From Sistotremastrum niveocremeum HHB9708 (Eukaryota > Basidiomycota > Agaricomycetes > Sistotremastrales > Sistotremastraceae), in NCBI GenBank assembly GCA_001630475.1, contig KV419418.1, forward strand, positions 390,584 to 454,583: DNA of 64,000 nucleotides, in the 5' to 3' direction. The position numbers and the translations under genes are program-made. Below, piece after piece: positions 23,443-47,341 of the stretch; within the stretch, counting starts at the first letter, position 1; every line of letters starts with the position of its first letter. The notes under the pieces are model-generated. The model saw nothing but the letters and a program-made list of their open reading frames with translations, was not told the origin of the DNA and made no database searches.

Positions 23443-23951
23443 TAGTGTTCTGAGGTCCAGTCACGACTGGACTTTTGACCCTCGCAGGGTGCGACTGGCA
23501 ACTGCCGGTCCGGTTGCCGTCCAAAATTTGGCGTGACTGGCAACTGCGACTGCGGTTGCGGTCCGGCGACCGGTCACGGCTGCGACCAGTTGCGCAACCG
23601 GTCACGGCCACCTTTTCCAGTCACAACTGGTCTTATGTCAATATTTTAATCATTATTATATTATATATACTGTATATACACCTCATATGATGTGGTACAT
23701 GCATATAGAGACCAATATATACCAGATATGTCACCACAAACACCCATTTGAGACCCAAAATACCCTCTGGGTACCCTGGTTGAGGACCATTAAGGGTCCT
23801 CGGTTGCGACCACGGTCACGACCGGTCATGACTGCGGTTGCTGGTTGCCTGATTTTCCAGGAACCTAGGCGACCGGCAACTGCGGTCCGGTCACGGTCCG
23901 GTCGCGACCTGCGGTTGCCACCGGTCACGGCAACTGGACCTTGGAACACTA
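23443..23951 (+). mobile_element. hAT-like MITE, copy C (509 bases), in the P450-D hinge exon
   Basis: The termini are TAGTGTTC and GAACACTA. The 8-base duplication GGGGAGCT is perfect (23435-23442 and 23952-23959). It interrupts the P450-D coding exon between the membrane anchor and PPGPAGLPILG. The arms carry the family's GGCAAC/GTTGCC and CCAGTC/GACTGG clusters, but the sequence has diverged from B, D and E. Short open frames inside it are repeat artefacts. Confidence 0.92.
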
Positions 23952-24882: not shown

Positions 24883-25388
24883 TAGAGTTCCAAGGTCCAG
24901 TCCACGTGACTGGTCGTATTGGGCAACCGGACCGAAGTCGCGACTGGACTGCAGTTGCCAGTTGCCTTGGTTTCTGAAAATCAAGCAACCGGCAACTGCA
25001 GTCATGACCAGTCGTGACCACGGTCGCGACCGATACTCAGGGAAGACCCTTAAGGGTCCCCAAATAGGGTGCTCAGAGGGTAATGTAGTGGTATTTTCCT
25101 CATGTATGGTCATGTATTCATGGTATATGATATATATACAGTATATATATGATCAATAGACACCAATAGACTATATATAAGAGGGTAAAACAATATATTA
25201 ATCATTAAAATATTGGATTTATAGGGCAGGCAACTGGTCGTGACTGGTCATTTGATGACTGGTTGCCGGACCGCAACTGCAGTTGCAGTTGCCAGTCACA
25301 GCAAATTTGGAATTTGGCAACCGGTCGCAGTTGCCAGTCACGAGGAATTTTGGAAAAAGTCCAGTCGTGACTGGACTTTGGAACTCTA
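24883..25388 (-). mobile_element. hAT-like MITE, copy D (506 bases, inverted)
   Basis: It begins TAGAGTTCCAAGGTCCAGTC and ends GACTTTGGAACTCTA, the reverse orientation of copies B and E. The 8-base duplication CTTACATG is perfect (24875-24882 and 25389-25396). Near-identity with B and E shows recent transposition. It is noncoding. Confidence 0.93.
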
Positions 25389-25396
25389 CTTACATG

Positions 25397-27049: not shown

Positions 27050-27147
27050 CTTCAGAAAAAATTAGACCTACTTATTGTACTTTTGAGTACTTTTGAGTGC
27101 TAAAAAGTACTCAAAAGTACAATAAGTAGGTCTAATTTTTTCTGAAG
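27050..27147. mobile_element. 98-base hairpin MITE, copy 1
   Basis: Almost the whole element is one inverted repeat: arms of about 45 bases starting CTTCAGAAAAAATTAGACCT, with a loop of a few bases. Both sides are flanked by TA (27048-27049 and 27148-27149). It is AT-rich and noncoding. The same length recurs at 27612 and 46163. Confidence 0.88.
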
Positions 27148-27149
27148 TA

Positions 27150-27611
27150 AGGTCAAAAACTCTGCCATCGCATGCTCTAACCTCGTAGATAGACAGTAAG
27201 GGCATGGATGAATAGCGTTTCTACGCTTGTCGGCACTTGATTTGGATTGATATCTGATAGTCAAATGTTATAGACTGTTCATGACATAATCCAGAAAATA
27301 TAAATTGCATCCACGGAAAATATTACTAGTAATATTACAAGGGCGTCACCTGATATACTCTCAGTCTGTGTATGCTCAAATTAGTTCGGAAGTCCGGACT
27401 CGCGAGTGACCAAAGAAAGGCGACACCAACAGCGAGAAACTGAACGAAAGTCTGTAAATCGAAATCACGCTGACCGTTGAGAGTCGCCGTGTCGATCCCA
27501 TGGTCGAAAGTGCAAAGAGGACCAAAGGCAAGAGGATACAAGACACTTACCTTGTTTTGTCTTCTCTGAGTTGCTTGAGGCCTACGATGTCTTCCGCTTC
27601 TTGGTGAATAC
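27150..27611. other. Intergenic between two hairpin MITEs
   Basis: About 460 bases without a supported gene. The right end (just before 27612) is the ancestral 3' coding end and UTR of the minus-strand gene at 27694-28797. Confidence 0.45.
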
Positions 27612-27709
27612 CTTCAGAAAAAATTAGACCTCCTATTTTGACTCTGGAGTACTTTTGAGTACTCTGGAGCACTCAAGAGGTGAAATAGGAGGTCTAATTT
27701 TTTCTGAAG
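27612..27709. mobile_element. 98-base hairpin MITE, copy 2, supplying a stop codon
   Basis: The arms start CTTCAGAAAAAATTAGACCT and mirror at the other end. The flanking duplication is AC (27610-27611 and 27710-27711). It lies inside the last coding exon of the minus-strand gene and provides that gene's present TAG at 27696-27694. Confidence 0.88.
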
Positions 27710-28797
27710 ACAGACAGGAGGGCATCGCCGAATTGTTTTTTGGGGCGCTCCGAGATGGCTAAGTCGGGGGCATGTTGGTCGGAGAGTTCAGTGATGGAAG
27801 CAAAAGGCGGGTCAAATGCATAGGTGATATCGGAGACTGGGATGAAACCGTGTGACTCGAGATCTGGGAGGAGAGAGAGGACGCGGTTGTTGATCCTTTC
27901 ATATTCGATGAACGCTTCTCTAGATTGGCATTAGCCATCAAGGCAGAAGGCATGATTTAGGACTCACATGTGAAAGTGAACATGTGCAGCGTCAACTTGA
28001 AGATGGCAATCGGAGAAGGGAGGATCGGGACAAAGTGACCAGAAGCCAGGCGGATCACGCACGGATCCATCGGGGTTGGGGCGATAAGCAAAGTAGTAAA
28101 CAAATGAGGTTTGTTCGTCCAAGATTGCGAGAGAAGGATCAACGCGAAAACCCGTAGACGACACTATAAACAGTCAGTACATAAAATTTCAAACAAGCGA
28201 AGACTGACCTATGCGGAGAGGATGAACATCGATCCCAAAATCCTTAGCAAGTGAACGTGCAGATCCAAGAAAGAAGTCCAAGATGTCGTCTGTGCAGTAC
28301 GCGCGGACAAACGTGCGCAGATTGACTTCCTCCTCAGAAGAAGAAACATCGATTGACCATCTGAGTACAGCAGTTAAGTGACGAGATCGGGAGAATCAGG
28401 GGTCTGACCTTGTGTATCCACCAATCTCAGTTCCCTGAATCGCGTCCCACTCTCCATCGTGCCATCGATCAGCAGCGATGGAATATCTTGGTGGACCCGC
28501 GAGTGGGACTTGGTGGACGAGAGAAATCGGATGCCAGACATTTCCCTCGATCCACCCAATGTCCCCAACAGATGGCGAGCTTGTTCTTTGCACAGACTCA
28601 TTCGACCCGCTCCACCATCTCAGCCAATTCCACAGAACTCGACCATTCTCTTCTGTTTTCTCCTGGCTCCATCTTGTCACTGCTTCCCTCATTTGCTGGA
28701 ACCGAGCTGCATATAATTCAAAGGACCCGCTCGCTGCACCAGTCCTATCTGCGTTGACTGAGAAAGTGTCGCCTCGCGATAAAATTTGACTGACCAT
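27694..28797 (-). CDS. Unrecognised 320-residue protein, C-terminus rewritten by a MITE
   Basis: Exons 28797-28409, 28360-28209, 28163-27968 and 27919-27694 join in frame (963 bases) with introns of 43-48 bases. I do not recognise the family. Visible stretches are VGDIGWIEGNVWHPISLVHQ, YTRWSIDVSSSEEEVNLRTF and FVYYFAYRPNPDGSVRDPPG. There is no signal peptide or membrane helix, and it looks cytosolic or nuclear. The reading frame ends ALLSVFRKN, with the last residues and stop encoded by hairpin MITE copy 2. Removing the 98 bases and one AC restores ALLSVFTKKRKTS, which contains a short basic run. The coding frame is otherwise clean, so the gene may still be expressed. Neighbours do not suggest a role. 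Confidence 0.65.
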
Positions 28798-29136
28798 CTC
28801 CGTCCTTCAACTGGTTTTGCCATCAGCGCTCGATCTTCACAGTCAATCATCACTTACCCTCCAAAATGCTTCCTCCATCCGCCACCCTGAATCCTCCCAC
28901 CGAACATCCATCCTCCCCAGTCCTCCCATACACAACTGTTTATCCTTTGCACCCAGGAGGACATCTCGATACTGCTCGGCCGGCCCCGTCAGCAAACGCT
29001 GCTCTCATTTACTCGGACCACTCACCCCTCCTGTCCACGACCCTCCGTGTTCCCCAAGGAATCTGTATCCTGCCTGCCATCCGTTAATTACTGATTACAC
29101 GGACCACTGAACACCACTCACCACAAATTCACACAT
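28798..29136. other. Intergenic between two minus-strand genes
   Basis: About 340 bases holding the upstream region of the 320-residue gene. A plus-strand frame at 28866-29087 is Pro/Ser-rich and without support. Confidence 0.4.
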
Positions 29137-29529
29137 CTACGTCTTCGTTAGCTCTGCATAGACGCCAAAAGATTTGATATTGACAATACGCGTGTGCTCA
29201 ACAAAGTACTCGAAACCGGACAGACTTTGGAGGTAGTCGTATGCGGCAACGGTGCCTGTGGCGCGATCAGTTCTTGCCTCTTGCAAGAGCCAATGGACTT
29301 ACCTGCCTCGACCACGATCATCTTTGTTCTCCCCGTATCCGAACTCGCAATGCCAAGCAATCTGCCTACATATCGATTTCTGAAGACCAGATCGTCAGAT
29401 TAAGTCGTATTAGAACACTTCGAAACAGGAGGGCAACGCTCACAAGAGATCACCGCGGAGTCCAAGCTCCTTCTTGAATTCCTCCAAGCCCCGATGTTCA
29501 TCTTCCACTTCAGGCTTCACCCAGGCCAT
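29137..29529 (-). CDS. Unrecognised small three-exon protein (93 residues)
   Basis: Exons 29529-29444, 29379-29303 and 29255-29137 join in frame (282 bases) with consensus donors GTGAGC and GTAAGT. The product starts MAWVKPEVEDEHRGLEEFK, continues YVGRLLGIASSDTGRTKMI and ends FGVYAELTKT. No domain is recognised and there is no signal peptide. Its exons are too short to stand out as single frames. Three exons keeping frame across two good introns is the only evidence of reality; no regulatory or neighbour information helps. Confidence 0.5.
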
Positions 29530-29957
29530 ATGACTCTAGTTGTCATACAACACAGGCCGAAGGCCCAGAGGATAGTGTATTCACTATGAGGAGATTGTAG
29601 AGGCTTGCTTGTACTACAATGCCGTGTACTTAGGAGAGCTTAAGGTGGACTTCGTAACCCGCCATGGATTGTATAACCGGCCGCGGTCACCCTTGCCTCG
29701 ACCTCCGGGACCGGTTAGCGACCGATTATGGGCCGGCGTCGGTTGTTCGGGTTTCGGCTTGATTCTCGGGGTAAAATCGATACCGCCGTATCGGATACGG
29801 CCGTTGGGACCGTTGCTTACGAATTATTCAGACTCAGCTCTCGTCGATGATGGGTGCAATTGCGGCATTTGGTAGCAGAATGTACATCCGAATGTAGACC
29901 ATGTAATTGAATATATTATCAAGACAATTCAATAACATGACGAGAACTACTGAACGA
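29530..29957. other. Intergenic, possible left flank of a KDZ element
   Basis: About 430 bases, rich in ccggt/cgg motifs around 29680-29830, 3' of the large orphan gene. I could not find a terminal inverted repeat or duplication that would mark an element end. Confidence 0.35.
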
Positions 29958-32814
29958 CTACTTGCGACGACGTTTGCGCTTGGTCGGCGATTGGTTGTCA
30001 GGCTCGACGTCAGCGTGCGTGCGTTTAGCGGATGGAGGACGGGACTGGTTGTACTGAACGAGTTGATGAGAAACCCAGGCGACGTCGTCTACGATGACAG
30101 CGAGTCTCGCACGGAGCTCGACGTCGGTGTCTTCTAATGCGTCCGCCCACCACGACAGACAAAGCAAGATGAGGAAATATCCGTTCGACGTACCGAAGTT
30201 CACGATCTTCCACCACTTTGCGTTCGCTCCCGTCCTCTCTAAAGGCAATCCCGACCCTCTCAAGCTATCAAAGAGACTGATCCACCACTTCTCACATTCG
30301 TCCGCTAAGTTCGGAAGCGACCAATTCGGTTCGCCAGCTGGATGCTTCGTGAAGTCGCGTGCGAGCTGCATCCAGCGAGCTACGTGTGTCGGACGATATT
30401 GAGTGGGGAGACGTACGCGTTGCTAGACCAATCAATGAGAGACGTTTACGAGGAAAAAATCAGCAACCTTACCTCGTCAAAGCCCAATGAACGATCCAAC
30501 TCGATTAGACCCGATATGGCGGAGTTCCACTGAGGAGGGGGATTTGGGATCGCTTTGAGATACTCGACAGCCTCAACGAGCCATTGAGGACCATCGGGAG
30601 GGACAGTGATGGCGTCGATTGGGAAAGGTGCTGAATTCGGCGGAGTTGGTGCAGATGGAGGAGGCGCCGGCAGTGAAAGAGGAGCTGATGCCGCTGGAGA
30701 TGGAATGGGCACTGCTGGAGAAGGGACCGATGGCGATGGAAGGGGGACTGGCGCTGCTGGAGGTGGTTGCGATGGCACTGGGGAGGAGCGTATCGGTTGG
30801 GGAGGAGGCTGTGACTGGGGAACCGAATGAACGGCCTCGGTAGCTGCCGACTCTGCTTCTTTGGCCCTTGTACCTGAGGTTGGCTTCGCGGCATTCTCCT
30901 TCGGATCGCCTAGCGGTTCCGACTCGTGTCGCTCTTCCTCGTCATCGCTTGTCGTCTTCTCCTGAAGAGTTTCGTCCTCTTGTGGATTCCCTTTGCTGAA
31001 CCAAAGCCCATGTAAGCATCCTATCAATCGAAGGTAATGACTCAAGCTTACCTCAGACGCGAAGACCGGCGGCACGGCTCCGATGATGCGGCCTTCTCAC
31101 GTGGGCGCTTCTTTGCCTTTTCGATCGGAGGTGGAGCATTAAAGAGCTCCGCCGAAGCCTCCTTGGCCCCGATATTATCCAGAATGGTTTTCCATTTCTG
31201 GATATTCTTCTCGCGCTCCCTCATCAACGCCCTTCCGGTCAACATTCGAGGGGCGGGCTCCTCTTCCTCCTCTTCCTCCTCTTCCTCCTCGTCTTGTACA
31301 TCATCGTCTTCCTCATCGTCCTTTCCTCCGTCCTGCTCGCCTCCTCCACCTTCGCCTGGCTCATCAAACTGCTCTTGCACATCTCCCTCCCCCATTCCTG
31401 CACCGTCGCGATCTGAAGTGTGAGCATCCGTCTCCTTCTCTTTTTCGTTGTTGGTCGGCTGATGAGGAGGGGCGGAAGACGGAGCGTCTGACTGTGTAGG
31501 CTGTGCCGCTTGAATCGGACCGGAAGAAGGAGTCGGCTGAGTCGTAGATGCGGTGATCGAGTTTGATGAGGGAGTTGGGATCGTCTGAGGGGGGGTCGAT
31601 GAGGTCTGGTTGGACGTCTTATCGGACGGATTCGTGGGAGGGGAAGCGTTCGTTGTCGCAGGTGAGTTTTCCTTCGGCGTTTCAGCTGTAATTTACTCTC
31701 ATCAATTATGCCAACAAACAAGTGCAATGTGCTCACGTAGGCATCGATGTGCATACTCCAGGATGGGATCGATGTATCTCTCTTTGAACCCAGGCACGGT
31801 GTCTTCGAACTTCTGGCCATCAGCTAAGTGCTTTCCAGTCGATGCGCTGAGATCCACGTGAGTACTACGGATGTTCGAAACCGGCCGAAGACTTACATGT
31901 ATACGCTCATCTCGTTTCCGTTTCGAGGCACGCGTCCGACATAGATCGTTATTCCCACGAAGTTCGTTGCGACGAAGATGGAGTTGGAATGTGATTTCAT
32001 AGTGCGTGGGAGTATGTCGATGGAGCTAACCCTCCGAGGTGAGTATTCATCCCTTCTGACACAATGCGGACGAACAACTCACTCTTGTCGAAGTGCCTCA
32101 CTCTTCTCATGATCGTTAGCCTCCTCCTCTTCCGACCCTGCCTCCGCTTCGCCTTGCGCCTGCCACAACTCTTCGACCTCCGCCTTAACCTCTTCGGTCT
32201 CATCATCCAGACATTTCAACGTGAACGCATTACGGGCTGCGAATTTCTCGTCCTTCGTGAGTGGTGCTTCTCCGTTCGCAGTTCTCGTCGCTTCGAGCTG
32301 AGCTATGTGGGCTTCGTAGGATTTTTGAATTTTCTTCTCGTAATATAGACCAGAGTATATCTGCCACCTATGCCGCTTCGCCTGGACCTTCGGCGTCGCC
32401 TTACGCATAGGTATGACAGCCTTGGTACGACGACCTTTACTGTCAGCCGCAGTCCGTACACCGTTATATATCCAATCCTTAATCTTCTGTATAGCCGTCA
32501 GTTGTGAACAAGAATACGAGGTATCGATTGAGACGCACCCTCTGCCTAGCGACCGTAGCGTTTGGCGCTGGATTTTTTATCTTCTTCTTCCCCTGTGCTC
32601 TCCTCTCATCACAAGCCCTTTGCAATTCCGGCAACGCGAGACTGTACGCTTCGTCTTCCTTAGACGTTACCGGCCAAGTCGCGTCGAAATGCGCATACGT
32701 TTCGGCCAGGTACGCAGCCGTCTTTCCCTGATCCTGGGCATCCTTGAAGCCCTCTAATCTCTTCGTTAGGTATTGGAGACGGTCTTCTGGCCAGGTCGAG
32801 CGATATACGGACAT
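29958..32814 (-). CDS. Large orphan protein (848 residues), candidate KDZ-element companion
   Basis: Seven exons (32814-32539, 32486-32083, 32031-31897, 31846-31737, 31685-31052, 30995-30473, 30422-29958) join exactly in frame. The N-terminus is a helical region (RSTWPEDRLQYLTKRLEGF, YAHFDATWPVTSKEDEAYS, RHRWQIYSGLYYEKKIQKSY). A low-complexity centre follows, with Ser/Thr/Pro-rich runs, a run of about 11 Glu, and Pro-rich repeats. The C-terminal domain is WSLPNLADECEKWWISLFD, IVNFGTSNGYFLILLCLSWW and a basic tail SPTKRKRRRK, probably a nuclear localisation signal. I do not recognise a family. It is divergently arranged with the viroplasmin gene and lies beside a KDZ transposase, so an element-encoded accessory role is possible but inferred. 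Confidence 0.7.
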
Positions 32815-33150
32815 GAGGACGAGGACCGCTGTCAGGGTTCCTTTTTTTCGCTGTACACGTCTACACGAGCCAGCTTCTTCTCGCTTCGAACAACGCTAAG
32901 ACAAGGTCCGTGCGCTCGACCTGCCCTAAACCTTGTCCTGGGGTATATAAGCCCGCCCTCATCGCTCCTCTCTCTCTCCCCCCAACTCTGTCCTGACCAC
33001 TAGTAAGTTCCCTTCTTTCAACTAGCTTTGTACACATTCTGACTCTAAGTCGATCTTATGTAGCTTGTAGTCGCCAGTACAAGGTTCTTCTTCAGCACTG
33101 TAAGTGACCTCCGTAGCTCTATTAGCTTTACACTAAGTAGCTAGTGTAGA
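32815..33150. promoter_or_regulatory. Shared divergent promoter region
   Basis: This 336-base gap separates the start of the orphan gene (minus) from the ATG of the viroplasmin gene (plus), so both must be driven from it. TATATAA at 32944-32950 in a GC-rich context, followed by a pyrimidine-rich ctctctctcccccc tract, looks like a plus-strand core promoter. GTAAGT near 33003 and later AG sites suggest a 5' UTR intron. Confidence 0.5.
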
Positions 33151-34080
33151 ATGGCGGCCGGTACACAGCTCAAGCAGAAGCAGAAGAGTGAGCGGCCGCC
33201 ATCGCCTGAGTTCTGGGCCGAGTCCGAGGATGAAGATGAGCTACGTTTGATAGCGGACAAGGTCGACGAACTCGCAACCTTCGTCGAAGGTCTTCAAATT
33301 CGTCAAGACGCGAAGAAGCCGATGACATTCGCGCCGAACTCCGTTATTACTCAGTCCCCGCCGATGACTCCTTCGTCTGCCTCAAGCGTGAGATTGAGTG
33401 ATCAAGATCGTCGTCCATACAAGTCTCCGCCGAGGTCTGAGATCAATGCGTGCCCATTTAACACTCCCATCTCAACGTCACTTAGCTTGCCCGACACAGC
33501 TGAACTTCTCGGCTCGCCTTCTCGGCCGTCAAGTTCAAGGGGTAGTACTCCCGCCCGAAATGTCATGTCGCCTCCTCCTCGTGCTTTCCCTTCGCGGGTC
33601 CTTCCTTCTGGTAGACATTCATATCCTCCCGTCATTTCGTCCGGTGTTATCACCCACTACTATCCTGGCCGTCGCATTCGCGATGTAAATAAGCCCCGCC
33701 GTTGGTACGTCGTATTGAAGGGCCGTGAGCCAGGAATCTTCGATGACTGGTAGGTTTATTACGTCTTTGATGCCTCGTTCTATCTCTGACGTTACCGCAG
33801 GGGTCTTACTAAAGAATCGGTTGACGGGTTCAAGGGCAATTCGTACTTCACTGTCCCTGACGAAGCGGAAGCTGTGTCGAGGTGGAATGAATACCTTGCC
33901 GATTCGCAAATAGAGTTCCAAAGTCCAGTCACGACTGGACTTTTTCCAAAATTCCTCGTGACTGGCAACTGCGACCGGTTGCCAAATTCCAAAATGTCCA
34001 TGACTGGCAACTGCAACTGCAGTTGCAGTCCAGCAACCAGTCATCAAATGACCAGTCACGACCAGTTGCCTGCCTTATAA
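33151..34080 (+). CDS. Viroplasmin / RNase H1 N-terminal-type protein, 3' end replaced by a MITE
   Basis: Exon 1 (33151-33749) and exon 2 from 33801 meet in frame inside the domain. The domain reads RRWYVVLKGREPGIFDDW then GLTKESVDGFKGNSYFTV and DEAEAVSRWNEYL, the caulimovirus-viroplasmin / RNase H1 hybrid-binding fold that binds RNA-DNA duplexes. The first 170 residues are acidic then Ser/Pro-rich and probably disordered. No catalytic RNase H domain follows. After ADSQ, MITE copy E interrupts the frame; the sequence now reads on into the element to TAA at 34078-34080, adding about 55 foreign residues. Without the element and one duplication the protein would end DSQRGRPRSGSSALFV with a stop at 34463-34465. 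The binding domain itself is complete. Confidence 0.8.
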
Positions 34081-34416
34081 ATGTAATATTTTAATGATTA
34101 ATATATTGTTTTACCCTCTTATATATAGTCTAATGGTGTCTATTGATCATATATATACTGTATATACATCATATACCATGAATACATGCTCATACATGGG
34201 GAAAATACCACTACATGACCCTCTGAACACCCTGGTTGGGGACCCTTAAGGGTCTTCCCTGAGCATCGGTCGCGACCGTGGTCACGACTGGTCATGACTG
34301 CAGTTGCCGGTTGCCTGATTTTCAGAAACTGAGGCAACCGGCAACTGCAGTCCAGTCGCGACTTCGGTCCGGTTGCCCAATACGACCAGTCACGTGGACT
34401 GGACCTTGGAACTCTA
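33911..34416 (+). mobile_element. hAT-like MITE, copy E (506 bases), in a coding exon
   Basis: Termini are TAGAGTTCCAAAGTCCAGTC and GGACCTTGGAACTCTA. The 8-base duplication TTCGCAAA is perfect (33903-33910 and 34417-34424). It is nearly identical to copies B and D, so the insertion is young. It sits in the last exon of the viroplasmin gene and supplies its present C-terminus and stop. Confidence 0.95.
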
Positions 34417-34465
34417 TTCGCAAAGGGGAAGGCCTCGCTCTGGTTCTTCGGCTCTCTTCGTTTAG

Positions 34466-35707
34466 TCTCGCTTCGCTTTACGTAGTTTGTTTTGTTGTGT
34501 CATTTGATTGGCTGCTCGTGCCTTCAATATATGTCGTTTCCCTAATTTACGTCTGAATCGTCCTTACCAATTGAAAACTCCATCAAGTCAATTGTCGACA
34601 GAAGTGTGTAGTGTTCCATCAGAACAGTGTAAGCATTGAAGTAGCATAAGGATCGTAACTAGAGTCAACGAATATAAAGCTTTTACTATTCAGTTGTTAA
34701 TATATCATGGCAATAACACATTAGAAGAGTCGTCAGTCGACAAGCATTCTAGTCTACTTCGCAAGAGACAAGAGAGAGAAAGGGAGTGACGAGTATCGAC
34801 TCACCAGCGCAGCGTATCGACGGACGTATCAATCACCCTTTGAATGCATGACAGTACGAGTCAAATGAGGAGATCGATTCATTCGATAATCGTACGTGTT
34901 GGTAGGGTACACTCATTTCTCGAACAGTCGCTTTCGTTCGGTTTGGCGGTACGACTACGAACGCGGTACATGCGCATTTGATGTTCTCTTGGTAAATCAG
35001 GCGAATACGGTCGTAACGATAAGCGATAGACATGATCAAAATAGCAAAAGCTGAATCGACGGGAACTTCTGTATTGCGATGTTCGAGCTTGCCTCAGATT
35101 TACTTTCAAGACGACGTACCGCAGTGATCTTCTCTTTCAATCTCGAGTGCCATGAAAGCTGTAGCGTCAGAGTTTGCTGAAATGTCTGGGAGAAAGACTC
35201 TTGGTCTCCACGCGTATAGAGCCATCATTCGTCCGAGTACGGTAATGAGTGACCTGACAATTAGACCTATGATTTCTGGAATGTTAGAGTCTCGTACTCC
35301 GATTTTGATTTCATTCCGGCTTCTGTTCGATCTATTCACCTCAGTCAAAATAAGTGGCCCGTTCTAGGAGCCCAAGACGACTCAATCAATCAGTATGTCG
35401 GAGTGTTTGGTTTGCCACTGAGGCGACAGCGATTAGATTAACGTCTAGTTGACTGAAGGTCCAGGAAATCTCAATCAATCGAAGCCCTATGAAAGATTCA
35501 TTTCTTCGTACGTATCTGTTATTACATTTTTAAACGACTTCGAACGATGCTTTCTGGTTTTCTGACCCAATTTCTAAATTTAGTCGGTGTCGACACACGT
35601 TATTCAGTGACCGATTCCAACTCCGCTGCAACGCGTCTCCCACCAAATCATCCCCTCCACGTCGCTGCCATCCTCCATCGTCGTCGATCCGTTGCACCTC
35701 ATGTATC
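34466..35707. other. Intergenic upstream of the KDZ transposase
   Basis: About 1.2 kb after the ancestral stop of the viroplasmin gene. It should include the KDZ promoter. Frames at 34833-35348 on the minus strand and 35152-35367 on the plus strand are short and unsupported. No terminal repeat was found. Confidence 0.4.
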
Positions 35708-38700
35708 ATGTCCACGCCCACCTCCTCTTCAAAGTCTAAACCATCCGCTCGTCGTCGACGCAAGCAACAGAACGAAAGCGATGACGACGATGTCACCATC
35801 TACTCCAATGTAAAACGAGCGCGTGCTGGTGAAAGAGTGACGAATATCGTCCAACTCGACTTCCGTTCACGCAACATCACCTCCACTACCACTCGCGATG
35901 TAACATATCTCGATACCCCCTCTACCCTTCTTTTTCCTCATCTCAACATCGTTCGCGCCGAGGATGAAGACACATCACCTAATTCTGAGCTCCGTGGCGC
36001 GTTCGATCTACAAGATTCCGAGTACTACCACGTCTGCGACGACGAACGGAAATCTCGAAAGACCAAGCAGAAGGCCATCAAGAAATCGTCCAAGGTATAA
36101 TATCTGTATTTTCTCTGTCACTGAACCAACCTAACGCGCTTCGCTGTCAGGTAAAAATGGACGAATGGGCTCAGCTTCGTGACGAATATTTGCAGGAGCT
36201 CATCAGACTCGATGGTCTGGGTTCCGATAACTCCCCCCTTTCTATATCTTGTATTCTCTGTGGCAACGCTGGTTCGTCCGTGCACAGATGTATCGATTGT
36301 CGCGCTGGTGCATTGCAGTGTACCGACTGTATCATATCTTCTCACCGCCTTAACCCCTTCCATCGAGTCGAGGTGAGGCTACTTCTTTATCCTATTGTTG
36401 CTCATCACTGATCCGACATTTCGATTAGACGTGGCGTGGCGAATTTTTTGAGAAGAACACACTCGCGTCTATCGGCCTACGGATTCAACTGGGTCATCAC
36501 GGTGGACGATGTACCGGCCCTCTCCCCGGTCACAAAAAGTTCACCGCCGTCGATATCACCGGCGTTCACCGCATCGCACTCGACTTCTGTGGCTGCGGCG
36601 ACAGTCAATCAGGCTCGCTTCGTCGTACCCAACTCTTACGCGCTGGCTTCTATCCAGCTACCCCCGACGAACCTCGCACCCTCTTCACACACGCTTTCCT
36701 CGAAACCTTCCACGTCCTTACCCTTCAGGGTAAAACCACGTTGTATAACTTTTATTACGCCATCGCACGCAAGACCGACAACCTTGAGATCGACGATTTA
36801 CCAGTAAGTTGTCTCTTTCTCTTCGTCTGCCAAATCTGATTTCATCTCTATCTAGGATCGATACCAAGATGCGCTGCGTGTTCTCCGACAATGGCGCAAC
36901 CTCATGCTATTGAAACGTCACGGCCGTGGACATGACCCGTCAGGGGTCATGTCCACTCTTCCGGGCTCCCTTACCACCGAATGCGCAGCTTGCCCCCATC
37001 CGGGACGCAATCTACCAGATGATTGGGAGTCGGCGGATGATAGCATGAAGTGAGAAGATACCTTTGTAATCGTTGTAACGCTTTCTTACCTGTACAAGGT
37101 TTTTGTACTTTCTTATATTAGCAATCGATGCCAACTTCCGACTGAAGTCGCGAGAGCGGCATCTTGAGGACTTCCATCTCTGTCCGGGATGGGGTTGCTT
37201 CGTCGACTCTCGCGGCTATCTAGAACACGTCGATAACTCCCCCGATCAAGTGGAGGTAAGTATTTCGGCTACGTGGTGGAGGCTTGGAAACTGACACAGC
37301 TTCGCAGATCAATACTTGTCAATCCGATCTCCACGCTGTCGATCATGCAAACAAAAGCAAGAAGGGTCTGAGAGCTAGCGGAGCTGCTGCGGTTGTATGT
37401 GCAAGGCACGGACTTGTGAGACCGAATGGTGTAGGGGATTTACAGAAGGGCGAAAGGTGTGTGTAGCTACTCCGTCATCGTATTCCATCCAACCTAATCG
37501 TCTTGTCATTAGATATGCCAATATGGATTATATCCTTATGTCGGGCGCTCGCGGTATCAAAGTTAACCACCTCATCGTAACCTACGACATCGCTTGTCAA
37601 TTCTTCAAGAAATGGGATGCTCGACACGCAGCCCTTCCCCTCTCCATCCAGCTATCGCCTACCGTTGAACTCGACGCCGGGGTTCCCAGTCTCCATATAG
37701 AAGGACATGGTGCTGACTGCAAGTGCCGATGGGGGCTACGACAGAAGAAAGGTGCATGTCGTACGTCAGGAGAAATAATCGAGGAGCAGTGGTCGAGTGC
37801 GAATGGGTTGGCTTCAAGCATCTCCGAGATGTCTCCTAGTGCGCGCGAGGAGATCCTTAATGATCATTGGAATCATTGGAATTTCCGCAAGAGAGTCAGC
37901 TACGGTATGTCTCATAGTATCTTTATCTTCTCGTCTATTCAAACTTAATCGCCGATAGGTCGGATTTTCAAGAAAACTTTGATCGAAGCACTCGAAATGC
38001 GTGTCACGCAGAACGCAATCTTCGTTCAATATAACAACGCGTTTCCCAAGGAGTTGACTACGAAATGGGAGGGAATGGTGGAAGCGTGGGATCGTGAGAT
38101 GCTAGTGAAGACCGTGCCCAATCCATATGAGGAGCCCACTACAAGTAAGTCGGGCCAACGTCTATCATGCGTCTATCGTTTATTGATTTTGCAATTAGAG
38201 TCTTCGCTTCAAGACATTCGATTAGCGTTAGCGGAAGAGGAAGAGAAACTGATCAATGAAGGACATGTGGCTGTACATCGTGTTTCGGCTTCTGGGTTGT
38301 TGGTTACTGGATTACAGCTCGAAGAACAGCAGTACGTCGCCGTCTTCCATTATATCAATTCGCACCAGCTTAACCTTTGTAGGCATGTTCTTCGCATCCG
38401 CATTACCGCCTTGCATCGCAACGCGCCTGCGGCGCAGCGAGCAAATCTGAAGGAGAAGCAGAACGCTCTTGCACGAAGGATCAAAGCGTGGCAAGAGATT
38501 CAAGATCTCCATATGCCCTTCATCATCGCCCATCGCACCGCCCCCTCTACATCGACTTCTACATCGACTTCTACATCAACCGCCCCCTCTACATCGACTC
38601 CCCCTTCTACATCGACCGCCCCTCCCACGTCTACCCGCCCCAATCCTCAATCGACGGCTACTCCCTCCAATCCCCAACCGTCGACTCAATCGCAGTCGGA

Positions 38701-39010
38701 CGCTATTTCGTCGGGCACCCCCTCTCCCTCTTCACCTTCACCTCCGTCTGCAGCTGACGTCCCCCTCTTCCTTCCTTCTTCCTTACCCGACTCTCTTCGG
38801 TTATCGCCCTCTCTCACCTCTTTCGTTTCGATCGAACGTCGACTTCGTATTGCGCAAGCTAAAGACAGTCTAAACTCGCTTCGACGTTCTCTTCGCACGA
38901 CGAATCAGCTGTGGGATTATAAGAAGAAACAAGTCACCGGTCAGCGTGGCAACACTCGCGCGCGTAGTCTCATCGAGCAATTTAAAGAGAAGACGGACTT
39001 AGCTGTCTAA
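35708..39010 (+). CDS. KDZ-type transposase with CxC2-like cysteine cluster
   Basis: About ten exons join in frame to roughly 1,000 residues. After a basic N-terminus (SARRRRKQQ) comes a zinc-cluster CILCGNAGSSVHRCIDC and LQCTDCIISSHRLNPFHRVE, the CxC2 module typical of basidiomycete KDZ (Kyakuja-Dileera-Zisupton) transposases. The RNase H-like catalytic core shows FLILAIDANFRLK (first Asp), LIVTYDIACQFFKKWD (second Asp, with the family's DxxCQ) and TSGEIIEEQWSSAN (Glu). Conserved HGADCKCRWG lies between. A Thr/Ser-rich linker from repeated acatcgacttct units precedes a C-terminal helical segment ending EQFKEKTDLAV. All three catalytic acids and an open frame suggest a potentially active enzyme. 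It would move its own element and perhaps related nonautonomous ones. Confidence 0.9.
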
Positions 39011-39029
39011 GGCTTCCAACGAATACATA

Positions 39030-39400
39030 CTCGCCATACTCGAGTACTCGTGGGTGAGTACTCGTGATGCGAGGCCGAAGGTCTCGCATCCGATTTTTTT
39101 TTGAGTTTTTTGCTCCGAAACACTCGAGTACTCGCGTGTATATTCGCGAGTACTCACGATCACACGAGTATTTGCGAGCATTCGCACTCGAGTGCTTTCA
39201 GAACACTCGAGTACTTGTATTCATGAGTACTCGAGTCTATCCGATACACTCGAGTCTTTGCAATCATGAGTTGACGAGTTCACTTGCGAGACTTGAATAC
39301 TCGTCCTTATCACACTTTTCAGACTCGAGTTCAAGCAGAACTCGAGTCGCACTCATCGTACTCGAGTCCAGACAGGACTCAAGTACGCTCAATCACACTT
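39030..39400. repeat. CTCGAG/GAGTAC-rich subterminal-like tract
   Basis: Immediately after the transposase stop, variants of ACTCGAGTACTCG recur in both orientations over about 370 bases, spaced irregularly; sparser relatives (gcgagtact) continue to about 40680. Short motifs repeated in both orientations beside a transposase gene resemble the subterminal transposase-binding repeats of DNA transposons. Function is inferred. Confidence 0.6.
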
Positions 39401-39979
39401 CACTCAAACTACCTACTCGGACCCAGACACCTTGACTTCTTGTTTGTCTTGTTCACACTCTTCTTCTTGAGGCTGCCCTTTGCTGGTGGTTTTCATCCGA
39501 GTACCCACGCTGATACCTGCGAGTACTACATAGTAGTCGGAACTGTTTGCATCGCGGCGGCGAGAGGTGGTGAGGGCGCTAGTGGTGGTAGTGGTCGTGA
39601 CGATGGGGATGTGTGGACGACAGCGGCGATGCGAGAGTATTGGGCGAGAACGGAGGAGGCGACACCGAGAGGAAGAGGAATTGGGAGGAGGGAGGGAGAC
39701 ACGAAAGAAAAAGAATTCATAAGTATCAGTCGAGACATGAGATAGACAACATACGCACCGTTCATCCACAGGACCACCTCATCTCATAATAAACTCATTC
39801 CTGTCTTTCAGGCTCTGGCTTCCGGACTTTGGGTCTTCGAGAGACGGCGGAGACGTTGAGTCGTTGGCGTGCACAGGCAAGGGATTGCGGAGCGAGACGA
39901 GGACGGTCAAAGTCGAAAAGAATGAGGGTGATGACGTGTACGATGAAACTATGGACGGTGTGGGGTGTGAGTCGAGGAT
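39401..39979. other. Noncoding downstream of the KDZ gene
   Basis: About 580 bases, partly G-rich (ggtgagggcgctagtggtgg). No gene is supported. Confidence 0.4.
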
Positions 39980-40610
39980 TGAGTGGGGTGGACGAAGGTT
40001 GAAGTCGAAAGAATGTGAAATAGATAGTTAGCAATAAGTACGAGACCAAACGGTTTGACCGACGCACCTCTTATTTTACACTCAGATGACCGTGCCCTAT
40101 CTCCATCTCGAACATCAAGCCGCATCATTCAACTTCACCGCCGATGAAGATAATCTAAAAAGAGCGAAGGTAAGCTACGTCGTGAGATCGAATCGAACGA
40201 GTACTCACGATCTTGGCACGATTTCGAATCGTGCGGTCTTGATTTCCCTGGGGATTGAGATCCACGACGACGGATAATGATGACGGCGGAGGACAATGTC
40301 GTGGGGCAGATGGAGTCTGATGGACGAAGGATTAAGTCGAACGAATGTAAAACAGACAGTTAGCGATATGTGCGAGACCGATTGAATGAATGACGAACCT
40401 GACGTTTGATACCCGAATGACTATGCCCCATCTCCATCTCCAAAACCCAGTCTCATCACTCAACAACGATGAACGCGATCTGAAAAGAATTCTGGTAAGT
40501 TGCAGCAAACGATCGAATCAAAATGACAGACTACTCACTATTTGCACGGCCTCGAATCGCGCGGTCTTGATTTTGTGGGGGGCTGAGATCGACGAGGAGA
40601 GACGGGTGAT
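39980..40610. repeat. Imperfect tandem duplication of about 330 bases
   Basis: The segment around 39985-40280 recurs at about 40318-40610 with an offset of about 331-333 bases. Shared landmarks include ggacgaagg(t/a)t(t)aagtcgaa, ccctatctccatctc versus ccccatctccatctc, and gcggtcttgatt. Substitutions and small gaps show it is not recent. A few short frames in each copy are not convincing. Confidence 0.6.
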
Positions 40611-40979
40611 GGGTGTGGCAGAGGACGATGTGATAGTGAAGACGGTGGTGAGTTGCAGAGGGTGTCTTGCGTCCGCGAGTACTAAATAGTATGCTCTTGA
40701 TTAGGTCGTGTTTGGGGCGATGGAGTAGCGGCGGCGGCGTCGACAGAGAAGATTTTGAGCAGTGGATGTGCTGGCACGATCACGAGGACGGTTAGTTGGA
40801 TGTGGTGAAGGTGGAGTGCGACGAGGAGGAGCGAGCGGTGGCGGCGAGTATGGCGGGTGTGGATGAGGACGCGCGAGTCCTGTACAGCAGCTGATGTAAG
40901 CCAGTCGATTAGCTAGGAGGGGGCTATGGGTAAAAACAATCTATGAAACCAAAAAAACAACATTTTCAACTCGACTATC

Positions 40980-41048
40980 TAGCTCAGCGTGCTTACTCGT
41001 GGCATGCTGGGCGCTCGCGACAATTTTGTGGTCGCGAGTTCGATTCTC
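40980..41048 (+). other. tRNA-like sequence, possible SINE head or tRNA relic
   Basis: TAGCTCAGC at 40980-40988 resembles a Pol III A box and GAGTTCGATTC at 41036-41046 a B box, spaced as in a tRNA. The T stem pairs only partly and no acceptor stem can be folded, so it is not a functional tRNA. An AT-rich tail (41070-41150) follows, as in SINEs. Confidence 0.3.
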
Positions 41049-41179
41049 AATGCTGGCTGTTGAAAATAATATTATAGTAAATAATATATATATATAATAT
41101 TTAAATAATAAAAATAATAGTAAATTAAATATTATAAATATTAATTAAACCACGAGTGTTAGCCGGATACTCGTGTATG

Positions 41180-42310
41180 GAGGACCGTAATGGACTTTAA
41201 TCCACAGACCAAATCTTTCCTTTTTTGTATGCCTTGTGGGTGCGCATGCGCAAAACATGCCTTCTTATCCTCTGTGTGCATGCACATGGATCTGTGTGGA
41301 GTAGTGATTTTCAAAAACACTACCAAGTGGTCAAGTGGTGTGCACTCAAGATGTTGTGTTGCACTATTGCAGGGGCGCACAAAAGGATTGGCCATGAGAT
41401 CAGTGTGCACACTTGCCCTCCACTGTGTTCCAGACTCTGTGCGCACAACATTCTATGGAGAGTGAATATCCTGGCATGTGTATAGAGAGATCTTGATTTT
41501 GACTTTCAGCTGTGAACTTTATTGCAGGTGTTCTGCCAAATTTTAGGCCATAGGTGTCTGTGTGCGTGCGCATCATGTTTGACAAAAGCTGATTATGGTC
41601 TGTACCTGCACAACAACTGTGATACAGTCTGTCAATCCAGATTCCCAGTTCTGCTAGCAATGGCCTGATATGAACTCCAATTGACCCCAAATGTTTAAAT
41701 CATACATGAATTTAGCACAGCAACATCAATCTAGAACTACAGACTATTCATGGCATTGCTTGGTCATTGAATCAATACCAGAAAGATAGTCCTTGGAACT
41801 TATGAGACCTGCCTACATATTTTGGGGGCAGAGTTAGACACTCCTACTGAGTCCTGTCACAACCAAACCACCAGACCACAACCCAGGAAAGAAATCTCAG
41901 TGATGAAGGAGCAGGATGTTAGAACCATCAGATAACAACAGGTGATTCCTTCAAAGAGGATAGAAGACACCAGTCAGTAAAACAATAGATACCTTGAAGA
42001 TGTATATAAGCAAGCTCACCAATCATGGAAAACAATAGCTGGATTCACAAGAGTGCCCAGGTCTGACACTCTTGTGGTTCACATCTTTCCCTGAAAACCA
42101 GAATGAATGCACTTCAAGAGGCTCAAAAATGCGCAGCCTGGAACTCAGTGAAACCCTGAACCAAGTCTGGTGAAACATAACAGAACTGACATACAATTTA
42201 AAGGCTACAACTGTTAGGGTTCTTGGACACAGCAGGACCTGTTAGGGAGCCTGGATACATGGTCAGAGGAGAGTCAAAACAAGGAGAGGCGGCACTTGTC
42301 TATCAGTTTA
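41180..42310. repeat. CpG-depleted block, probable old methylated repeat
   Basis: Over about 1.1 kb I count only about eight CpG dinucleotides, most inside GCGC or TGCGCA, while adjacent DNA has dozens per kb. TG and CA are abundant. This is the footprint of CpG methylation followed by deamination, as expected for an old silenced repeat. No gene or terminal repeat is recognisable inside. Confidence 0.55.
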
Positions 42311-43482
42311 GTGAGATTGCTGAATTTGGAAGATGCATTCTTCAATTCCTTGTTGTAAAATGGCTTCAGATTGACCTAGAATTCCAGGTGAGCACTGAGC
42401 GAATGTATGATGTGATGGAATGATACCATGAAAGAGCAGTCCGGATGTCGCAGGGTTGTTTGCGTGGTCAAAACGTAGTTGTAAGGTTCCAGCCATCTTA
42501 ATGCCAGGATAGATGCTGACTTACAATATCACCTTTGCGTTGTGATTATGTGGACAGACAATCCAACAGAAGAGCTCCAAAACTAAATCCAATTCCATGA
42601 CCAAAAGCGTTGCAACAATCTGGTGACACGGGCATCTTTCGACGCGTTTCTCAGACAAACGACACGAAACTCTAAGGCGATAAGAACTCACAATTGTTGG
42701 CGGCGTCTTTCTCTCCAATCAAAAGGATGTCGGGCTGTACCAAGGTTAGGTATGTGCCAGCACGAACTTCGCCGATACGCCGGGCTGCAAAGTGATACAC
42801 AGTGATTGTTGGACGTGTTTTCCAGACCCAAATTGTGTGCCGAATGTGCTGAACCCAAGTTGTTGACAGATGGCGAGGTGAAGACGAGACGTCCGTGAGG
42901 CTATCATGGGAGGTCTTTGAGCAGATTTTATGGTTCCCAGAACGCGAGCCACTCACCCCCCATACGTGCTCGACAGTGTAAAGTTGCCCGATAGAGAAGA
43001 CGAGATCAGAGACGAACCGTCGGTTGATTTTGAAGATCGTATTTGTGGTTGAATAAAATAATACGCGTCAGAAGGTGTTTTAGAAATCAGGAATGATCGA
43101 GAATGAGCAGAGCGATGAACCTACAGCAAGCATCCCCAATTTGAACACCGACCTGCCCCACGTGTAGCGAAAGCCTTCACGCAATGGTCTTGATGAGACT
43201 GACAGCAAAAGGTGGCATAGGGTTAGTAGTGGACCAGGACGTTGATGTAAAAAGTGCTCACAGTGTTTTGAGTAGAACAAATCTGAGAACGCGAACGATG
43301 CGAGAGGTAAGGTCGAAAGCGGTTTCAGCGTAAATATTGGTAAATAGCCGCAACCAACTCAGTCTCCGCTCCTAATGGTCGGCCGTCGCCGCCGACCAGC
43401 TTCTCAACACGATTAGTTCCACATAATCTTGTGCTAAACAAAGTCTTAAATAAGGAATACTAATGTCTGTTTCGATCCATAG
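42311..43482. other. No gene confidently recognised
   Basis: About 1.2 kb. A minus-strand stretch around 42670-42956 reads YHFAARRIGEVRAGTYLTL and similar, but I could not extend it into a spliced gene. Normal CpG density returns here. Confidence 0.35.
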
Positions 43483-44473
43483 TAAAGGCTCCCATCGTTC
43501 GAGCGTCTGCCAGTATTTCTCGAACCGTGGATAGATTCCGCTGGAAGAACAGCACAAGACAGTGGGAAATTACGGGCAAGCTTGCTGATAATGTTGCGCA
43601 CTGGACAGAGGAAGACAGACTCGCGAGGAAGGAAGACGAAAGAGGACGACGTGGTCGCAGGTGGGTTCAGACCAGGAGATGGACGTCGAAGAGGATGAGC
43701 AGTCATCCGACGAAGAATCCGAGGAGCTTTCTGACGCTCCAGAAGAGATAAAGGCGTTGAAGGTGATTCTTTTCTGCTCTTAACATGATTACAAGTCCTC
43801 TAATGCTGTCTATCAGGCTCGTCGACGTCATCTGCGCAATCTCTTGTCGGAAACTAATCGTCAATCGTCGAAACGTCCTCCTCGTCACGTATCTCGGGCC
43901 CGACCACATCCTGTTTCTCGGCCTCCGTTACATGTCATTCCCGGCTATACGGTACTCGTCGTAGACACAAACATTCTTCTGGATTCTCTCGCCAGCTTCG
44001 CTTCTCTAGTCGAGAGTGAACGCTGGACTGTGATTGTTCCACTCGCCGTCATCACAGAACTTGATGGACTCAGTGCAAACAATAACCAACTAGGGGTTGC
44101 AGCAGCAGAAAGTATCGCCTATATATCTTCGCACGCAAGGACACATTCCGTGTCATTGAAGATCCAGACTTCGCAAGGCAACTACCTGCACACTCTTGGC
44201 TTACGGAGTGAGGACGTTCAGTTCGACTCAGATGAGTCATTGTCGGAGCGCAACATGGACGATCTCATTTTGCGAGCCGCAGTGTGGCAGGATGATCATT
44301 GGGTTGATCGTTCTAATCTTCTCAAAAGTGAAAAGCAGTCATCGGAAACGGAGAGCGCTGCAAAGGTGAGGTTGTCAAGCTTTGATCGCAATCTCCGCCT
44401 AAAGGCTCGTGCACGCCAGTTGGCTGCAGCAGATCAACGCGATCTGGCTTCTATCCTGGTTGTTGGCACCTAA
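43483..44473 (+). pseudogene. 5'-truncated SMG6/EST1-like PIN-domain nuclease gene
   Basis: A 3' splice site before 43483 opens an exon reading KAPIVRASASISRTVDRFRW and WTEEDRLARKEDERGRRG. An acidic exon follows, and the last exon starts at 43817. The PIN domain shows VLVVDTNILLDSLASFASLV (first Asp), PLAVITELDGLS (Glu), SERNMDDLILRAAVWQDDHW (Asp) and LSSFDRNLRLKARARQLAAA (Asp), so all catalytic acids remain. This pattern matches the SMG6/EST1 family of RNA endonucleases in nonsense-mediated decay. The N-terminal 14-3-3-like and helical domains of SMG6 are absent upstream. After the stop at 44473 a different frame continues as ASRKGQLRARSHTTVDLYSF to a stop at 44634, suggesting a frameshift or a missed intron. 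Likely a retained fragment. Confidence 0.65.
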
Positions 44474-45208
44474 TCATTGCTAGCCGCAAGGGACAACTCC
44501 GAGCACGCAGCCACACCACCGTTGACCTATACAGTTTCTTCTTGCTCGATACGTTCCTTGAGCTTCATTCAGAACTTCAGAGAGAACTGGAGCAGATTAT
44601 TCAGCAAGAAAGACGGGGTGAAATTCCTTCGTAAACACTGGGCGCACTGCTGTGATATATAATCCCGTCGCATCCACAGCTCGCATATGCATTCTTGCAT
44701 CTTTGCTCCTTCGTTCCTTTTGCATACTTCCTTCGGTTCATCCATGTTTATTGCCTTGTATCTTTCCTTCTGTACTCTGAGCCGCATCTACCGATTCTGC
44801 ACAGTAGTAGCGTAGATCCTCACACATCAGGGAAAGCATCTGAAACACATTTATCCTTCACAGCCTCCAATCACATCCCGCCGCCGCCACCATAACTTGG
44901 GTTCACCGAGTTCACAGTGTTTGCTACTCGGTCTCGCCCCAGCGTAGCGACGAATGTGCGGATTTACCGGGGATGACGGCTTTCGGCGTCTAACTCTCAT
45001 CTGGCCTCTAATGCAAATTCGAAATTTCAATTGTAAGATAAAATCGACACTTACATCCATCACCTTCGCGAGGTGGGCTGAAGCACCGCGTGCTACGATG
45101 TTATAAGCATAGCACCCTATTCGCCGGAGATTCTTGCGGCCGGCACGCTGTGATAAGCGCTGGAAACCTATAATCGTTGCCTCACTGCCTCATGCCCCAT
45201 GCCCCGTC
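44474..45208. other. Tail of PIN fragment and upstream of integrase gene
   Basis: The first 160 bases hold the alternative-frame continuation described for the PIN fragment. The rest, to 45208, shows no gene and presumably includes the integrase promoter. Confidence 0.4.
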
Positions 45209-47341
45209 ATGCCTGATCAGCAAACCTCATTCCCCGACATACCTGTCAGCGCAAACCCCGCAGTCGTCGAGGCATATAATCTCGTCCGAGCGACTTGGGA
45301 GCATGGAGAGACACTGTTGTCTCAAGAAGACGTCGATCCAGTCCAGCTACGCACCACAGCGACAAGGCTTGAAAGTTACACAGAGTTGGTGGATGCAATG
45401 GAGGAGGGCGGCGATGATGAGGAGTGGATCAGAAGCTTATCCATATCGCTCGCACGTATGATTGGATCCTTACGGGGTGCTGCTCGGGCGATGACGACTC
45501 GGTAAGGCAGATTCTGAGTTTCTTGGATCATCATTTGGTTTTTATGGTCTGGGATTCATCTAGGAGGGATAAGAATACGGCTCATTTCCCTGCGGTGCAA
45601 GTTCAACGCACTGGACAGCGTGGTCGACCCGCAAAAGTCCTAGATGAGGGAATTTTGAGGAACATGATGGCATCAAACCGGAACGTTACAATGGTAGAAC
45701 TAGCCAAGACCCTCAACGTTCATCCGAAGACCGTCAAGCGGTATATGCAAAAATATGGGATCACAAAGTCTTACAGTGCTATCACTAATGCGGAACTGGA
45801 CGACCTCTTTCGCAATTATCGCAAGGAGAGGCCACACTCCGGTAGACGATATTTCCACGGTCATATTCGTTCCATGGGACTGCGAATACCGCGACACAAA
45901 ATTGTATCTTCAATGAAGCGTGTTGATCCGGTCGGTGTTCAGTTGAGGTATAGGCAGGGAGTTCAGAGGCGAGACTTTGAGACACAGTGGCCGAACGCTT
46001 TGTGGTGTATGGATGGCCACCACAAGCTAATACTGTGGGGTATTGTGATTCACGGATTTATAGATGCTTATTGTCGCACGGTACACCATTTCCATTTCAA
46101 TAGCAGCCGAGTCTGACTCTCTCCTAGATAGTAGGTCTGGAAGCTTCAAATACAAACTCCAGCTTCTGAAAAAATTAGACCTACTAATTGTACTTTTGAG
46201 TACTTTTTAGTACTCCAGAGCGCTCAAAAGTACAATTAGTAGGTCTAATTTTTTCAGAAGAGTGTGCAAGTTTTGGGAGTCTTTCACCGTTCGATAGAAC
46301 AGTACGGGCGCCCCACTCGTGTCAGAGGAGATCGAGGTGGAGAGAATTTTCTTGTCGCGAAAGAGATGGTGGCTATCAGAGGAGAAAACAAAGCTGCTTA
46401 CATCTTTGGAACGTAAGTGACGAAGTTCAGATTTCAGGATCTCACACCTGGACAGATCCACCCACAACACACGCATAGAGCGCCTTTGGCGTGAAGTAGG
46501 CGATCAATTTGCACGCTGTTGGAAGGGTTTTTTTCTTCGACTTCAAAATTCATTCATGCTCGATAAGAAAAACCCACACCACTTATGGCTTCTCAATCAC
46601 CTATTTCTCAAGGATGTTCAAGAATCATGTACTAAATTCCAACGAGAATGGAATCACCACGCAATTTCTGGAAGATCAGCTAGTGAAAGATCTCCAGCTG
46701 TAAGTTCTTCGCCAGGCAATCTCACCTTCTGTTAATCGGTTGAGCGACTGCTAGGACATGCGTGCAAAAGGTGTCCTCATCTATGGATATCCTAAGGAAG
46801 TGGATGGAGACATATTTCTGTCTCAGAACTCCACCGCGATGAGCAAATATTTCGGCAAGAACATTGAAGACGTTTCTGACTCTGGTTCGGACAGCAACGA
46901 TGAGCTTGACACCGACCTCGATTCGGAAGCAGACTCGTAAGAGTCTTCTTCCCCTTTCATGACATACACTCATCTAGATGCAGCGATTCAGATGACTCCC
47001 AGGAATCCGAGGATGAAATCAGCGAGGCAGATCGTCGACTTTTCGCAGCTTTTACAGCGGGGCAGCGACATGTCCCACGCATAGTGTTTCCTTTCCCAGA
47101 ACTTACCATGGTTCAGAGATTTCAAGCTGCTTTTGAGGCAGCTGAAGAAGAAAACTTCATTCCCAATGGATACGGCATGCTACCGGAGGAGGATGAATAT
47201 GAAGTTTGGGATCCGCATGAAACCGTCACAGTTGCTAGGAAAGACGTCACAGTCACATTACTGGAAGAAGTTTGGAAGCCAAGAGCAGTGCGTTGGATAC
47301 TTGGTTTGCATCTGTTAGGCCTCGTACTTCCCCAAGTTTGA
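45209..47341 (+). pseudogene. Integrase-core (DDE) protein gene interrupted by a hairpin MITE
   Basis: Exons 45209-45501, 45564-46080 and from 46128 onward join in frame. The N-terminal region includes LARMIGSLRGAARAMTTR. A helix-turn-helix module follows (GQRGRPAKVLDEGILRNMM, MVELAKTLNVHPKTVKRYM). The rve-type core has NALWCMDGHHKLILWGIVIH (Asp), GFIDAYCRT (Asp) and THNTRIERLWREVGDQFARC (Glu). This architecture is common in multi-copy integrase-core proteins of Agaricomycetes. Hairpin MITE copy 3 lies at 46163-46260 within the third exon. Removing 98 bases and one AG restores TNSSVQVLGVFHRSIEQYGR. Later exons are acidic (SDSDDSQESEDEISEADRR) and end at 47341. Only the MITE breaks the frame, so the gene was intact until recently. 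Confidence 0.8.
46163..46260. mobile_element. 98-base hairpin MITE, copy 3, in an integrase exon
   Basis: The arms start CTTCTGAAAAAATTAGACCT and mirror at the right end. The flanking duplication is AG (46161-46162 and 46261-46262). The length is identical to copies 1 and 2. Precise removal restores the host reading frame, which independently confirms both element ends. Confidence 0.92.

Follow-up and report, generated by a model that had tools for sequence, protein, structure and literature searches.

Which transposase moves a 98-bp hairpin that duplicates two bases of its target, when those two bases are TA at one site, AC at another and AG at a third? The question is raised by a 64,000-nucleotide stretch of DNA, hereafter the window, from the basidiomycete Sistotremastrum niveocremeum HHB9708 (current NCBI taxonomy name Sertulicium niveocremeum). 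The window is C25:390584-454583 of a 34.7-Mb assembly of 111 contigs, to which all genome-wide counts below refer. An earlier reading made from the letters by themselves (the sequence-only reading) had described three hairpins here, each exactly 98 bp long, with flanking duplications of TA, AC and AG. All three were found again in their places with the same letters beside them (Table 1), and a scan of the window with the family end pattern returned no element beyond them. The hairpins are very probably non-autonomous elements, that is, miniature inverted-repeat transposable elements (MITEs), of the Plavaka cut-and-paste group, which belongs to the CACTA/EnSpm-Mirage-Chapaev-Transib clade. I base this assignment on the 16-24 terminal bases that they have in common with Plavaka loci of the same genome, on their 2-bp target duplications and on the near-fixed length of their families.

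The core of the hairpin ends, GAAAAAATTAGACC, has 63 + 60 exact occurrences in the genome, and its reversed-pattern control has none. Pairing covered 100 listed of these 123 ends, 92 of which pair to give 45 elements of 98 bp and one of 88 bp, leaving eight unpaired. Collecting the genomic copies, as the sequence-only reading had proposed, upheld the fixed length, with 45 of the 46 listed end pairs implying 98 bp. The eight unpaired ends (again among the 100 listed of 123) were considered as candidates for autonomous elements and proved mostly to be truncated or interrupted copies. The 98-bp family has the attributes by which MITEs are recognised: it is short and non-coding, with inverted ends, many copies and a target duplication. 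A kin family with ends CTTCAGAAAAAAATAGACC (25 occurrences) yields nine 88-bp elements and one of 91 bp from 20 paired ends, with five ends unpaired, and a 78-bp hairpin is a further member beside it. Ends consisting of CTTCAGAAAAAATTAG followed by CT or GC occur 58 times genome-wide and give 27 elements, 19 of them 128 bp, six 129 bp, one 120 bp and one 645 bp long; the last of these (C22:311699-312343), entertained as a separate element, is a 128-bp copy holding another repeat. Four ends of this type were left over, at C8:707362, C40:86346, C76:59089 and one end of an element at 986 kb on C8. Five 98-bp kin hairpins parsed from fetched loci end in CATCA..TGATG, and a sixth, in locus L077, has N on one side.

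One TA-flanked hairpin insertion recurs with the same flanks on C11, C64, C18, C42, C75, C93 and C105 (loci L047, L055, L061, L069, L081, L082 and L084), each time about 1.7-2.1 kb from the contig end. Because the flanks are the same on seven contigs and always close to a contig end, these copies suggest a shared subtelomere-like segment.

Across the 98-bp family and its sister families, 73 distinct insertions could be parsed, leaving out those with mutated outermost bases, those with N or too-short flanks, and same-flank repeats of one insertion (segmental duplicates). A 2-bp duplication flanks 61 of the 73, whereas permuting the flanks gives a mean of 5.7 and a maximum of 15. By family, the count is 40/47 for the 98-bp hairpins (permuted-flank mean 4.6), 17/18 for the 128-bp elements and 3/3 for the 88/78-bp family. 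Flanks match over one base at 16 of the 73 insertions (19.2 expected) and over three bases at five (mean 1.1; largest of 2000 permutations 6), three of the latter being 3-bp only. These three fall among the 12 insertions that fail to show a 2-bp duplication (GCT and GGC in the 98-bp family, which has seven of the failures, and AAG in the CATCA family), which agrees with the passages of PMC12730594 that describe PlavakaB duplications as 2 or 3 bp long. All 16 dinucleotides occur among the 61 two-base duplications. TA accounts for 11 of them (9 of the 40 in the 98-bp family), about four times the window background (2.8 expected, P 9e-5), and no other dinucleotide class among the 61 is significantly above background. 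Since TA is enriched about fourfold but makes up only 11 of 61, target choice is mildly biased towards TA and far from requiring it.

The joined flanks of 38 of the 61 duplicated sites (one truncated) were also searched for in the same genome, and ungapped paralogous empty sites across the junction were recovered for 11 insertions, ten of them non-TA. Six were checked letter by letter (GA, CA, AC, AC, TA and AT): the GA site is 98/98 identical in two paralogues, and at the TA site one of the two paralogues has single-base gaps off the junction. The remaining five (CC, GT, GC, AT and CC) are read from equal aligned lengths. For the hairpin at 27612, one of the two AC sites just named, the flanks have an ungapped empty relative at C65 (83% identity), in which the duplicated AC is GC. 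Furthermore, a 78-bp hairpin has inserted within a 98-bp hairpin, where GA of the known family sequence CAGAAG is duplicated, and the 27050 hairpin has a 98-base identical copy at C23:34559, there with a CA duplication.

Looking for an autonomous element with shared ends, a check put forward by the sequence-only reading, led to a Plavaka transposon on contig C8. GGCC-extended ends were the lead to C8:707362 and C40:86346, and the Pfam Plavaka model PF18759 has 39 matches in the genome, 37 above the cut-off (14 control genomes have none), including C8:711053-712050 and C40:92212-97215. The two ends of the C8 element match as an inverted repeat in 15/16 bases. With two introns spliced, its transposase is an uninterrupted 1,035 amino acids that match PF18759 at 1.3e-17 and 3.5e-73 in two exons, which settles the transposase family. 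Residues D357, D464, E732, C480/C483 (CxxC) and H708/H712 (HxxxH) are kept in 56-61 of 61 rows (the C8 protein and 60 of 120 relatives listed), and the C8 transposase has the C(2)C and H(3-4)H motifs of Plavaka between its second D and its E. A DUF6532 piece on the opposite strand is the sole neighbouring gene identified in the element.

The first 16 bases of the hairpins agree with the C8 left end in 16/16 positions for CTTCA copies and 15/16 for CTTCT copies, and in the common 128-bp form the initial 23 bases, CTTCAGAAAAAATTAGGCCAGGT, are identical to it. The C8 element itself contains one 98-bp hairpin, flanked by an AC duplication, and 84 bases past the right end of the element a second one starts. 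At a second Plavaka locus, on C54, the catalytic exon shares 66% identity with its C8 counterpart, and the start matches the 88-bp hairpins in 23/24 bases and the 98-bp hairpins in 21-22/24. The transposase pieces on C40 are 97-98% identical to those of C8, in a copy broken by another repeat and a run of N. Downstream of other Plavaka loci, (T/G)TTTCCTGATG occurs in 3 of 10 stretches, one of the ten being largely N; it reads TTTTCCTGATG or GTTTCCTGATG there, similar to the published PlavakaB termini, the putative borders being placed here from a single end.

Table 1. Hairpins of the window (window positions) and Plavaka loci elsewhere in the genome (contig positions).
Feature	Position	Strand	Ends or flanks
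98-bp hairpin, arms CTTCAGAAAAAATTAGACCTACTTATTG subfamily	27050..27147	.	TA at 27048-27049 and 27148-27149
98-bp hairpin, arms CTTCAGAAAAAATTAGACCTCCTATTT subfamily	27612..27709	.	AC at 27610-27611 and 27710-27711
98-bp hairpin, arms CTTCTGAAAAAATTAGACCTACTAATTG subfamily	46163..46260	.	AG at 46161-46162 and 46261-46262
Full-length Plavaka	C8:707362-713876 (6,515 bp)		ends CTTCAGAAAAAATTAG / GTAATTTTTTCTGAAG, TA both sides
Second Plavaka locus	C54:17772 (start)		start CTTCAGAAAAAAATAGACCAACTA, ~3.5 kb before Plavaka domain at C54:21310

Several observations weigh against the Plavaka assignment. Movement of the hairpins was not observed, the work being a comparison of genome sequence. Among the 100 listed of 123 core ends, none belongs to a long element with the exact end CTTC(A/T)GAAAAAATTAGACC; the C8 end departs from the 98-bp family after base 16, and that of C54 does so at bases 13 and 20. 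Of the Plavaka loci, C8 alone has both ends located, and there the duplication is TA. The right side of C54 is a run of N, and the right end of C40 was not found in the 3 kb fetched, where homology stops and the following 2.7 kb hold no such end. Finally, in the CATCA family a 2-bp duplication flanks one insertion of five, and one other has a 3-bp match.

A MITE of Tc1/mariner (or pogo) origin that had relaxed its choice of target would suit the enrichment of TA and the short palindromic form, which is like that of human Made1 as portrayed in parts of PMC1784062. It is nevertheless extremely unlikely, as 50 of the 61 two-base duplications are not TA, empty sites for GA, CA, AC, AT, CC, GT and GC insertions contradict it, and the long elements found with matching ends encode a Plavaka transposase. 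The sequence-only reading had held that a variable 2-base duplication does not fit Tc1/mariner, and had named TA at nearly every site as the pattern that would speak against its own account; with two-base duplications, among them every dinucleotide, at most of the 73 insertions parsed, and non-TA empty sites besides, its doubt about Tc1/mariner is supported. The length of the duplication, and nothing else, favours a MITE of the PIF/Harbinger-ISL2EU type, Harbinger relatives being able to give duplications of 0, 2 or 3 bp according to passages of PMC12730594. Here too the Plavaka transposase carried by the long elements found with these ends stands in the way, and although no genome search aimed at Harbinger or ISL2EU was made, I consider this origin very unlikely indeed.

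The anatomy of the hairpins raises a further question: how do their arms stay matched? The near-perfect palindromy first ascribed to them holds for the outer arms, where 98.6% of cells are paired over 36 pairs (28 distinct 98-bp sequences, CATCA-ended kin included), and does not extend to the central 26 bases, which pair poorly; over the whole half-length, pairing averages 88.8% (47 copies: 46 of 98 bp and one of 88 bp). Folded as single-stranded DNA, the window hairpins at 27050, 27612 and 46163 give z-scores of -17.6, -13.0 and -14.5 relative to shuffled sequences. Both members have changed in 15 of the 36 arm pairs, a count that none of 500 shuffles reached, and the signal is lost when the partner is slid along; the arm covariation score is 0.265 versus 0.080 shuffled. 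The 15 comparisons between six groups of 98-bp sequences favour both-sided over one-sided changes in 13 cases (e.g. 13 to 0), the remaining two being a tie (2 to 2) and the opposite (2 both-sided to 4 one-sided), in related sequences whose events are not independent.

The centre is asymmetric, and by inspection AGTACT-like boxes begin at positions 27, 37, 47, 57 and 67. Self-match peaks at lags of 10, 20 and 30 (0.54, 0.47 and 0.39), the other tested lags giving 0.11-0.33. Inspection also places three central boxes in the 98-bp form, two in the 88-bp form and one in the 78-bp form. In the 128-bp family and the subterminal stretches of C8, ATAGC/GCTAT motifs take the place of these boxes. By analogy with CACTA elements, boxes of either kind may bind the transposase.

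Joint change of the arms, together with stable folds, is also what might be seen if the hairpins were retained for use as RNA by the host, for example as a source of small RNA, and one copy pair (L006 and L007) does carry a change on both arms. Such a role is very unlikely: the copies are scattered among many unrelated surroundings, carry target duplications and cluster into near-identical groups, the pattern that recent transposition leaves; several single-copy changes are one-sided (e.g. L005, L032 and L054); the 128-bp family has an interior that is not palindromic (arm complementarity 0.50) despite the same outer ends; and an Rfam scan of the window gave no match. Introners, transposons that create introns, come to mind because 98 bp is within the size range of fungal introns and one copy (46163) lies between open gene pieces. 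However, the CTTC-ended 98-bp copies have no GT in their first 27 bases and their ends read CTTC...GAAG, so that a GT-AG intron cannot match the element borders, and I give this explanation almost no credence.

If the hairpins are Plavaka MITEs, a Plavaka transposase acting in trans would bind the shared ends, and perhaps also the phased inner AGTACT-like boxes, excise the hairpin and insert it with a 2-nt stagger, which host repair would turn into the duplication. Between bursts the arms of a founder might be made alike again, for instance by repair or copying through a hairpin or cruciform, and every new subfamily would then begin as a matched palindrome. A bolder proposal, possible but rather doubtful, is that a folded (hairpin or cruciform) stage in mobility re-matches the arms at each burst while the Plavaka transposase reads boxes spaced by one turn of the helix, which would leave 78, 88 and 98 bp as the main viable lengths; the one 91-bp copy breaks this length rule.

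CACTA/EnSpm elements carry subterminal TnpA-binding repeats, in arrays inside kilobase elements. The hairpins, assigned to the same transposase clade, likewise have short repeated motifs beside their ends, but here ends and array are the whole element. The mariner target of Made1 is TA. Made1, the 80-bp palindromic MITE of human Hsmar1, is similarly a tiny near-perfect palindrome of almost nothing but inverted repeats that derives from a longer transposon, whereas in the present hairpins any dinucleotide can be duplicated and inner boxes recur every 10 bp (for Made1, parts of PMC1784062). The closest published counterpart in the passages of PMC12730594 is PlavakaB of Agaricomycotina, with 2-3 bp duplications and ends CATCA..TGATG. 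The elements described here resemble it in a transposase with C(2)C and H(3-4)H, in duplications of 2 (or 3) bp and in similar ends, its own termini being present in the CATCA-ended hairpins and probably at other Plavaka loci. They differ from PlavakaB, as those passages portray it, in that the 98-, 88- and 128-bp families and the C8 element end in CTTCA..TGAAG or CTTCT..AGAAG and not in CATCA..TGATG, in that the hairpins are non-coding, and in that the neighbour gene in the C8 element is a DUF6532 piece, not TET/JBP. The repeat library of Marasmius oreades includes non-autonomous Plavaka elements, and in that study autonomous Plavaka were defined by the same Pfam domain and their inverted repeats characterised (sections of PMC8290104).

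Among the titles and abstract openings searched, none names Plavaka hairpin MITEs or transposons of this species, most subscription journals lying outside the scope of the search. Plavaka elements with 2-bp duplications were known before; what is added is a CTTCA-ended Plavaka lineage, with a full-length element that has an open transposase frame and with hairpin passengers, as well as the joint change of the arms and the 10-bp steps in length.

Other features lie near the hairpins. The 46163 hairpin sits between two open pieces of an apparent single gene with an integrase core domain (window 45421-46116, which holds PF24764, and 46249-46735, strand +), and the gene seems to read around it. 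Clusters of AGTACT at window 39043-39226 and in L115 were examined as possible family members and proved to be part of another repeat, whose ends are AAGGC(A/T)TCCAACGAATA. That repeat family, which starts with these bases and is rich in ACTCGAGTACTCG, is found at window ~39000-39600, in L115, where the copy has inverted ends, and in L071. A repeat of about 500 nt made of GACTGGCAACTGC / CCAGTCACGACTGGAC motifs lies at window 19125-19630, 24883-25391 and 33908-34416, and also at ~11268-11736 and 23493-23857; by eye, the sequences inserted in L085, a 128-bp copy, and in L105, the C40 Plavaka copy, look similar to it. Three 93-bp repeats, arranged head to tail and 83-97% identical to the first, occupy window 59481-59759 within a minus-strand open reading frame of 309 amino acids.

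The Plavaka group is little studied, and in at least one mushroom genome it ranks among the main groups of DNA transposons (sections of PMC8290104). Here, hairpin MITEs with nearly free dinucleotide choice are tied to a full-length, open-frame Plavaka of the same genome, and their exact ends and empty sites make a test of trans-mobilisation practical. The joint change of the arms and the 10-bp steps offer a handle on the origin and upkeep of tiny palindromic transposons. If the proposal of a folded stage and boxes read at helical spacing is true, it would be the geometry of the transposase-DNA complex, as opposed to chance deletion, that dictates element length and palindromy.

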